Origin: an uncultured Bacteroidales bacterium
GTDB taxonomy: Bacteria > Bacteroidota > Bacteroidia > Bacteroidales > CAIXZF01
DNA length: 64,000 bases
Assembly (NCBI GenBank): GCA_903923925.1
Contig: CAIXZF010000113.1
Location: 1 to 64,000 of the forward strand
Direction of reading: 5' to 3'
The position numbers and the translations under genes are program-made. Shown one piece after another: positions 1-60,945 of this stretch. Numbering within the stretch: position 1 is the first letter of the stretch; each line of letters opens with the position of its first letter. The notes below the pieces were generated by a model, which did not search any database, was not told the DNA's origin, and was given only the letters and a program-made list of their open reading frames with translations.

Positions 1-45
1 CGATGGGCGATGCCCATCGCTATTGGAAAATACCCTTTCAGGGTA
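1..45. repeat. compound hairpin repeat (REP-like), copy 1
   Basis: Two adjacent inverted repeats. CGATGGGC (1-8) pairs with GCCCATCG (12-19) across a 3-nt loop, and TACCCT (31-36) pairs with AGGGTA (40-45) across TTC; the linker is CTATTGGAAAA. The same arrangement recurs at 59198-59243 and, inverted, near 58984-59029. It is cut by the window edge. The layout resembles REP/BIME-type elements; no associated transposase is visible in the window. Confidence 0.75.
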
Positions 46-53
46 AAACTCCG

Positions 54-216
54 AAAGAAAGTCAACCATACCAGTAACCGCATAAGTGACCTTGGCTTTA
101 CCAAGCCAAAGCTTAATGTAACAATTTACCAGTTTACCAAGGTAATAATCTAGCAATGAAAGGGCATTTAGTCCTAAAAAGAAAGTCAATCATACCAGTA
201 ACCGCATAAGCGACCT
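54..216. repeat. 39-bp direct repeat pair plus shared spacer module
   Basis: A 39-bp unit at 54-92 recurs at 178-216 with two differences (positions 66 and 87 of the first copy). Between them, 110-149 is a 40-bp module starting AGCTTAATGTA that recurs at 58939-58978 with about five differences, and in both places it is followed by a GAARGGGCATTT word. This is non-coding repetitive DNA. A short open frame over 286-474 shows no protein family I recognise and is not called. Confidence 0.6.
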
Positions 217-492
217 CGTCTGGCGCGGCATCAAACCAGCACGAAGTTGGCCTGCCCCGAAGCGTCAGGCGCAGTCGCGTTGTGGTTACGAGGCCACGCG
301 GCCTTGAGCGAACTGGTCCTCTATCCTTTGCAGGAAGCCCGAAGAAAACTTCAATAAATAAAAAAGAAACGAATCAGCTTTTGAGACAGCCCCAAAAGGT
401 TTATTGTAACTTTGGTAAATTGCGACATTAGCCCATGGTATGGTACAAGGCCTTAAGTGGTGAAAAAAAGCCATTTTAAAACAGCACCGCTA
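217..492. other. gene-free stretch with a GC-rich patch and a possible IS end
   Basis: No gene is supported here. About 220-345 is clearly more GC-rich than its surroundings. At 379-393 the string TTTTGAGACAGCCCC resembles the terminal inverted repeats of some insertion sequences (IS1182-like ends), but no partner end or transposase is visible. It may be the relic of a mobile element. This is a weak inference. Confidence 0.25.
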
Positions 493-58791: not shown

Positions 58792-58983
58792 ATAGGTAGT
58801 AACATAAATATATTGGTTTTATTACATACAAAAAATTGATAGATTTCCAGATTGCTAAAATTGCAAATTTCGCCGGAAAATATTGAGAAAATTCAGATTG
58901 GAGCAGATCTGGATTATTATCGTTTTTTTTCAAACCAGAGCTTAATGTAGCAATTTACCACTTTACCAGGCTAATAATTAACC

Positions 58984-59029
58984 CTGCCCTGAAGGGGCAT
59001 TTTCCATTAGCGATGGGCAGCGCCCATCG
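58984..59029 (-). repeat. compound hairpin repeat, copy 2 (inverted)
   Basis: CGATGGGC (59011-59018) pairs with GCCCATCG (59022-59029); the second hairpin (GCCC-TGAA-GGGGC) lies on its left. Read on the minus strand it has the same order and linker (CTAATGGAAAAT) as copies 1 and 3. Confidence 0.7.
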
Positions 59030-59197
59030 TGTAGAAAGTTGATAAACAATATAATAGCCCTGTAAGGGCGGCCTACTTTCAGGAGGACCGCTCTAACAAG
59101 GCATTTGTCTTCTGGCTGGCTTGATAATCATTAGAAGCATCAGCCGTTGTTTCGTGCCGACCCTTACAGGGTCATATATAACACTGCGTCATTTATA

Positions 59198-59243
59198 CGA
59201 TGGGCGCTGCCCATCGCTAATGGAAAATACCCTTACAGGGTAT
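59198..59243 (+). repeat. compound hairpin repeat, copy 3
   Basis: CGATGGGC (59198-59205) pairs with GCCCATCG (59209-59216), linker CTAATGGAAAA, then TACCCT-TAC-AGGGTA. Nearly the same as copy 1 at the left edge of the window. Confidence 0.75.
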
Positions 59244-59460: not shown

Positions 59461-60945
59461 TCAGAATGCGGACAGAGTATGCATGAATTTATGCTGCTTT
59501 ATCCAATAAACTCTTACCGGGTAGCGCCAAATTCTGAATACGCGGCTAGAATCGGATTGCTGACTTAATGAGATCCCGTTTGAAATAAATGCCCTGTCGG
59601 TTTCGGCTTCATTCTCTTCCACAATAATCAATTCTGGATTGAGCGTATTTATCGGGTCTTTCGAGTTAAAATAATTGTTCCACACCGGCATGGTTTTGAG
59701 ATCTGTTTCCCAGCTGACTGCTGTGGCCCAGGAACCCAGAGCTATCCCCGGTTTATAGGAGCAGCACTTCAGGTAATGATTCACTGTACGGATATCATAG
59801 GTTCTGCTGCGGAATGACTGGATTATGCCTGAGAGGTTGAAAATAAGAACAAGGACACTGAGTATGGAAATGGCTATTTTCATTGATTTTCCGGATGAAA
59901 ACAGTACTGAAAATGTAGCGCTGATGAATAATCCAGCGGCTACATATAAGGAAAGCAAATAGCGGTTTGGCAGATAAGTCATCGGGATTTTATGCAGTTC
60001 GAGAACTATCCAGATCAAGGAAAAAAGCATCACTATTTTATAACTGCTATTGATTTTTCTTTTAAAAATAAGGAAGACAAGCCCGCAAAGACTTACAAAC
60101 AAAGCAATCCACAGATATTTAAGCGGGCCAATCCACATAAATTCTGCAACATTGAAACGAAAAACGGCAAGGATATCATGGATATTAGCCGGAAAGCGGC
60201 CATTGACTTCATTCGACATAATATAGTTGTAGAATTCCATGTTCCGGAAGTACCAAATAAGGTAAAGCAAGGAAAATCCGAAGCTAAAGGCTGTGGAAAG
60301 AAAGAAACCGCTGAACGAATCTTTAAAGGTCTTTTTTTTATTTCGAAATGCTGCAACTCCAATGAAAAACATAGCAACAGGAAGAATTGCTGCCACATAT
60401 AAAAACTGAATTTTACAGCTGTAGGTAGCAAATAGCAGCGCCGATGAGATGAGCAGATATAGGGTTTTCCTGTTCGGCCTGTTGTGATATTGAATTAAAA
60501 ACCACAAACTTGCAAGCACCATACTGTTACACAGCATTTCTGCCAGTCCGTAATGCGAAAAGTGGAAAATATGATATTGGATGAGCAGCAGAATGGTAAA
60601 AAAGATTCCTGTTGCTTCAAGTTTTTTTTCTTTCAAAAACAAAAACAAGACCAGCAAAACAGAGAGCAGTACGATCAGTCTGCTTACAAGCTGACTCGAG
60701 CCAAACACCAGGAAAAACGGGAGTTGGATGAGATTAAACAAGGGACCTCTTACGAAGGTGCTGTTTTCTTTCATAGCAAATTCGCCGGATATAAGGTAAT
60801 TCCTGATCTGACTGGTATAAAGTCCCTCATCGGTCCAGGCGCCGCGGGTATTCACATCGGCTTTAGGTTCGGGGTCGGCGGTAAGAAAAGGAAAATGTAG
60901 CAGGAAAAGCAGGAGAATAACACCAAAAGGCAATAATTTCCTCAT
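59461..60945 (-). CDS. GT39/ArnT-like membrane glycosyltransferase
   Basis: A 494-aa protein with about 11-12 membrane helices. The first external loop carries the acidic pair of the GT-C fold (TDEGLY, D39/E40) that holds the catalytic aspartate in ArnT/PMT-type enzymes. It transfers sugars from a polyprenyl-phosphate carrier onto lipid or protein at the outer face of the inner membrane. The acceptor is unknown. Its ATG overlaps the stop of asd (ATGA), an unexpected coupling. Confidence 0.82.
   Translation of the reverse strand: MRKLLPFGVILLLFLLHFPFLTADPEPKADVNTRGAWTDEGLYTSQIRNYLISGEFAMKENSTFVRGPLFNLIQLPFFLVFGSSQLVSRLIVLLSVLLVLFLFLKEKKLEATGIFFTILLLIQYHIFHFSHYGLAEMLCNSMVLASLWFLIQYHNRPNRKTLYLLISSALLFATYSCKIQFLYVAAILPVAMFFIGVAAFRNKKKTFKDSFSGFFLSTAFSFGFSLLYLIWYFRNMEFYNYIMSNEVNGRFPANIHDILAVFRFNVAEFMWIGPLKYLWIALFVSLCGLVFLIFKRKINSSYKIVMLFSLIWIVLELHKIPMTYLPNRYLLSLYVAAGLFISATFSVLFSSGKSMKIAISILSVLVLIFNLSGIIQSFRSRTYDIRTVNHYLKCCSYKPGIALGSWATAVSWETDLKTMPVWNNYFNSKDPINTLNPELIIVEENEAETDRAFISNGISLSQQSDSSRVFRIWRYPVRVYWIKQHKFMHTLSAF

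Follow-up and report, generated by a model that had tools for sequence, protein, structure and literature searches.

The 64,000 nucleotides considered here (positions 1 to 64,000, forward strand, of contig CAIXZF010000113.1 in assembly GCA_903923925.1, from an uncultured Bacteroidales bacterium; henceforth the window) carry three copies of a repeat built from two hairpins. The unit is 44 nt long: hairpin A, with an 8-bp stem and a 3-nt loop, a 12-nt A/T-rich linker, and hairpin B, with a stem of 4 to 5 bp. One copy opens the contig. The other two form a composite near 59 kb, which has a plus-strand gene accompanied by a tRNA on one side and, on the other, a minus-strand gene that converges on it.

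1-44, plus strand: two-hairpin unit, copy 1, at the contig start; A 1-19, linker 20-31, B 32-44 (71.2 bits)
58986-59029, minus strand: two-hairpin unit, copy 2; B 58986-58998, A 59011-59029 (67.8 bits)
59198-59241, plus strand: two-hairpin unit, copy 3; A 59198-59216, B 59229-59241 (67.7 bits)
58986-59241, no strand: 256-bp composite B'-A'-core-A-B, made of copies 2 and 3 inverted
59057-59069, no strand: inner B-type hairpin GCCCTGTAAGGGC within the composite core, read from the sequence
59159-59173, no strand: inner B-type hairpin GACCCTTACAGGGTC within the composite core, read from the sequence

An earlier reading of the window (the original prediction) held that the same repeats build its left edge and the region near 59 kb, and that copies 2 and 3 form an inverted pair about 170 bp apart. 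Both points stand: the units lie as listed, and 168 bp (59030-59197) separate the A arms of the inverted copies. It also gave hairpin B as TACCCT/AGGGTA, which is right for two window copies and wrong for the third, since the hairpin at 58986-58998 is GCCCTGAAGGGGC. Hairpin A in all three is CGATGGGC-NNN-GCCCATCG, and the copies differ by few bases. Each unit folds about 4 standard deviations better than its shuffles, and the 256-nt composite, taken as single-stranded DNA, reaches -75.6 kcal/mol, 13 standard deviations below shuffles.

Copies in the source genome and its relatives

A covariance model of the unit was made from 27 copies, taken from the source genome and two others, JABDBX and JAFGHU. 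Run against the source genome it matches at least 32 times at E<=0.1 and at least 27 times at E<=0.001, counts that may be lower bounds because 150 of 1979 candidates were scored. Exact A palindromes number 16 in the 4.6 Mb of this genome, and a reversed control pattern is found nowhere. None of the 27 copies at E<=0.001 overlaps an open reading frame (ORF) of 150 aa or more, and such ORFs cover 81% of the stretches concerned. The repeat is thus neither confined to the three copies of the window nor placed at random inside genes, the two outcomes that the original prediction had named as fatal to itself.

Two further complete composites were seen, C28:8332-8588 and C110:128-382 (C numbers denote contigs). 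The three are 83-86% identical across 255-257 bp, and the identity ends with them: their flanks agree at 43-50%, as random 100-mers do (mean 49%), except for one side at 65%, where the window and C110 have in common the AGCTTAATGTA module, a separate repeat described in the last section. A comparable case is found in another genome, G197, where two loci have in common a 126-bp block, 94% identical, that contains one unit.

Among the 393 genomes of the order scanned with the model, at most 16 candidates being scored in each, the unit is present at E<=0.001 in 62, the source genome included. It has no match in G001, the one genome listed from the same family. Across the phylum it is found in 18 of 395 genomes at E<=1e-5, again counting the source, and some of these belong to other classes. 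A strict DNA pattern had found nothing in 58 other relatives and was, as the model scan later showed, too strict; in named genomes a strict pattern found 11 stretches, 10 of them in the metagenome-assembled genome JABDBX and 1 in JAFGHU.

These relatives provide the variation needed to ask whether the hairpins are kept as hairpins. The alignment, which draws 103 matches (93 of them distinct) from 20 stretches in related genomes, was fitted to the model, and this favors the structure. In it, positions 2-4 of the hairpin A stem vary among G-C, A-U, C-G and U-A pairs. Cells compensated by change on both sides number 129, a total reached by none of 500 shuffles, and slid controls give at most 23. 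An earlier and less diverse set of 27 copies had shown compensatory change in B only and none in the A stem. Selection on hairpin structure, which had been suggested from stems kept while loops varied, is therefore supported by covariation in related genomes.

It might be supposed that hairpins so conserved are held in place by host selection, as transcript ends, mRNA stabilizers or sites for nucleoid proteins. That all 27 copies are intergenic, that structure is kept by compensatory change and that the 59-kb composite has the neighbors it has all agree with such a role. It is harder to see why a host function should be so patchy as to appear in 62 of 393 genomes and give no match in G001 of the same family, why similar copies should stand at unrelated places, and why they should be associated with one clade of transposases, as described in the next section. 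Nor, by eye, does a run of T follow B in the window copies. I think it very unlikely that host function explains the family, but the hairpins may possibly have acquired a secondary role in the host.

Some copies depart from the common arrangement. In JABDBX, five tandem units with a period of 121 bp occupy L051 2766-3293 (L numbers denote loci), and a second palindrome lies between the copies. At L280 (C5), L281 (C76), L282 (C85) and L285, a divergent subfamily is found inside short-repeat arrays of the CTGCCTT/CTGCCTC type, and at C6:50381 an array of this type cuts a unit.

Y1 transposases beside the unit

Genes of the Y1_Tnp family are present in 54 of the 61 other element-bearing genomes. 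The flanking test took 111 Y1 loci in element-bearing genomes and counted a unit of at least 23 bits within 500 bp of the gene. By this measure a unit lies beside the gene at 25 loci, on both sides in 14 of them; 19 loci remain when the unit cut-off is raised to 28 bits and 13 at 33 bits. The density of units falls with distance from the gene: it is 1.30 per kb over the first 150 bp, then 0.49, 0.24 and 0.13, and 0 at 801-1200 bp. Orientation follows a rule as well: 43 of the 60 units within 300 bp conform to B'-A'-gene-A-B (24 upstream and opposite, 19 downstream and same, vs 12 and 5 in the other two orientations). This is the geometry of the window's B'-A'-core-A-B, with a gene in place of the core.

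The transposases concerned belong together. The tree holds 124 Y1 rows. Its 25 flanked rows, which represent 24 loci, all fall inside one clade of 32 rows (98/84), and the flanked label changes 5 times on the tree vs 23.0 times in shuffles. The clade's 7 unflanked rows include 6 with sub-threshold matches or with a unit of at least 23 bits beyond 500 bp. Conversely, 15 other Y1 loci gave no unit match; the tree includes 13 of these and places every one outside the clade.

Gene and unit also occur in the same genomes. A core clade gene, defined as one scoring 236 bits or more, is found in 31 of the 393 genomes. The unit accompanies it in 24 of these 31, vs 38 of the 362 without the gene (p ~8e-16, shared ancestry uncorrected). 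With a looser cut of 189 bits the figures are 28 of 48 vs 34 of 345 (p ~2e-13, likewise uncorrected). An independent check used six clade loci from genomes that had been counted as negative for the unit. All six show a weak match, with E from 2.6e-5 to 0.0085, no more than about 200 bp from the gene, one of them to B only. At two of these loci, as their alignments show, the outer A stem departs from the consensus: it is fully paired in L319, and one pair is broken in L317.

Since the family in relatives flanks one lineage of Y1 transposases, its members are most likely miniature mobile elements. I consider it probable that they are non-autonomous, REP-like, and cognate to that one IS200/IS605-like lineage. 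The recognition unit would be the pair of DNA hairpins, A and B, joined by the A/T-rich linker, and two inverted units around a spacer would make the element, B'-A'-spacer-A-B. In the presumed autonomous form, that of the relatives, the spacer would be a gene for a HuH/Y1 transposase of roughly 150-160 aa, and in the form of the source genome it would be the 168-bp core, which has no transposase gene. If TnpA(IS200) and TnpA(REP) are a guide, the enzyme may recognize the hairpins once they have folded in single-stranded, replicating DNA, make a cut beside them, and transfer or copy the segment to places between genes. The family, its covariation, its intergenic position and its tie to one Y1 clade are demonstrated; binding, cleavage and mobility are inferred.

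Several results weigh against this reading. No Y1_Tnp gene was found in the source genome at E<=0.001; a Y1 gene flanked by the same hairpins, which the original prediction proposed to look for, is seen in relatives. The clade profile finds nothing in the source genome even at E<=10. Such an empty result says little unless a positive is known; the profile does match in 67 of the 393 genomes, the source (G000) not among them. At 86 of the 111 Y1 loci there is no unit of at least 23 bits inside 500 bp. The unit appears in 4 of 19 genomes having only distant Y1 matches (157-188 bits), and 38 of the 62 element-bearing genomes, that of the window included, have no core-clade gene. The units most like those of the source genome come from JABDBX and JAFGHU, which possess five Y1 genes with no unit beside any. 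These genes were rejected as partners: four are on the tree, outside the clade, and L060, the remaining one, has diverged too far to be placed on it. The copies in the source genome are probably relics, unless their partner transposase was not assembled, and would have been spread by an enzyme since lost or unassembled.

The 38 genomes with palindromes and no core-clade gene might be taken differently, to mean that the palindromes belong to the host or to other elements and are preferred insertion targets of a Y1 element, not its parts. At 14 of the 25 flanked loci, however, whole units stand on both sides of the gene, mostly inverted, and a single cut would split a target into halves. G215, moreover, a genome in one contig, repeats unit and gene together in tandem with a period of 847 bp, its stretch containing two full genes and three units, and the flanked label tracks the transposase clade. 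I judge it unlikely that the palindromes are targets.

It is also conceivable that another enzyme, or homologous recombination, spread the repeats and that the Y1 genes are passengers, which would account for finding no transposase of the clade lineage in the source genome, JABDBX or JAFGHU. Passengers would not be expected to come from a single Y1 lineage, nor should the association fade over so short a distance from the gene as a few hundred bases; these arguments come from Y1 loci, other genes between paired units not having been searched systematically. Of the explanations weighed, this seems to me the most improbable.

Comparison with known systems

The original prediction compared the repeats to REP/BIME families mobilized by a RAYT, a Y1-type transposase. 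The link to a Y1 enzyme, in position, in its restriction to one clade and in co-occurrence, is upheld in relatives; the canonical RAYT is not. Two clade proteins were scanned. Both pass the NCBIfam model of IS200/IS605, NF033573 (66.8 and 65.7 bits, cut-off 55), and the REP-associated model NF047646 scores 19.4 bits in one (cut-off 80) and has no match in the other. The HuH motif is present in all 25 flanked rows and Y---Q--HH in 24 of them, and the clade profile matches solved chains of the IS608 transposase (best E 3.3e-11). A class-2 RAYT is thereby rejected, as far as two scanned proteins can tell, and so is the GT[AG]G tetranucleotide that REP/RAYT systems would place at the 5' foot of hairpin A: of 58 locus-by-foot kinds, 2 have GTAG there and 22 have NTAG, in a count that omits matches without a perfect A stem. 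By motif and NCBIfam match, the cognate transposase is of the IS200/IS605 type, subclass 1.2, and not a canonical RAYT.

The resemblance to REP, REPIN and BIME sequences and their RAYT (TnpA-REP, class 2 Y1) is real nonetheless. Both systems consist of dispersed intergenic palindromes (here at least 27 copies) that form inverted pairs (here three complete composites), flank a Y1 HuH gene (here in relatives, at 25 of 111 loci) and are tied to one transposase lineage. TnpA-REP groups are described in PMC8266576 as having co-evolved with their REPs. The differences lie in the unit, here a double hairpin with a 12-nt linker and no GTAG/GTGG foot at hairpin A, and in the enzyme, here IS200-like with Y---Q--HH. 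Subclass 1.2, as presented in PMC6006769, is marked by that motif and generally lacks typical terminal secondary structures. The present transposases agree with it in HuH, in Y---Q--HH and in their occurrence in Bacteroidetes; they differ in forming one lineage with cognate paired hairpins dispersed over genomes.

Also similar are the TIRtrons (TIRYT) of PMC3733652: Y1 genes between inverted repeats that also form dispersed families, in dimers or clusters. Some TIRs are double palindromic, a likeness judged by description and not by TIR sequence. A Y1 gene between recurring inverted repeats, which defines a TIRtron, is what one finds at 14 of the 25 flanked loci. What differs from that account is that here, in Bacteroidota, a model defines the unit and a tree the Y1 lineage. 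No description of the A-linker-B unit was found in the literature searched, most subscription journals being outside its reach.

If the reading of these repeats as miniature elements is right, a little-characterized branch of single-strand transposases is tied to a concrete candidate DNA substrate, in sequence and structure, and REP-like replicators in Bacteroidota are extended to a different recognition unit. A bolder notion is that each subclass-1.2 Y1 lineage drives its own family of paired-hairpin replicators, which would make a third Y1-hairpin system, common in Bacteroidota, beside IS200/IS605 and RAYT/REP, with the A-linker-B double hairpin replacing the GTAG-footed single hairpin. I offer this tentatively, as slightly more apt to be wrong than right. 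In G001 (L276 1500-2400), a Y1 gene outside the clade lies, by eye, between A-linker-B pairs of its own that differ in sequence (R1 scores only 15.8 bits). This suggests that each Y1 lineage has its own hairpin pair, though a single example and a weak hairpin count do not prove it. The count is that a perfect hairpin lies within 200 bp of 53 of 94 other Y1 genes vs 9 of 71 at 801-1000 bp; it is weak because the flank close to a gene is probably intergenic and farther away more often coding, so hairpin content alone does not serve to extend the idea to all of subclass 1.2.

A separate observation comes from JABDBX, where the flanks of Y1 genes L056 and L058 contain, by eye, quite different hairpins, a sign of other Y1-hairpin pairs.

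Companion repeats and neighbors

Two other repeats keep company with the unit in the window.

97-149, plus strand: AGCTTAATGTA module adjoining copy 1, a separate repeat
58926-58978, plus strand: AGCTTAATGTA module adjoining the composite, a separate repeat
54-221, plus strand: second companion module, a direct repeat (54-97 and 178-221, 91%), in arrays elsewhere in the genome

The two AGCTTAATGTA modules are 85% identical. Both they and the second companion module are considered separate repeats because both occur apart from the hairpin A unit and in arrays. An Rfam scan of the window at gathering scores returned a tRNA only. Readings of the composite core as attC-like or tRNA-like were weighed by eye and set aside. 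The 494-aa ORF at 59461-60945, adjoining the composite, has no Pfam match at E<=0.001.

A block of the AGCTTAATGTA module and a companion of roughly 200 bp (window 54-350) is repeated on C88 and C51 at spacings of about 310-330 bp. It is found at many contig ends (C11, C40, C51, C72, C85, C88 and C95). By my own count, 20 of the 234 contig ends have a unit or companion module no more than 600 bp away, and these repeats help explain where the assembly breaks.
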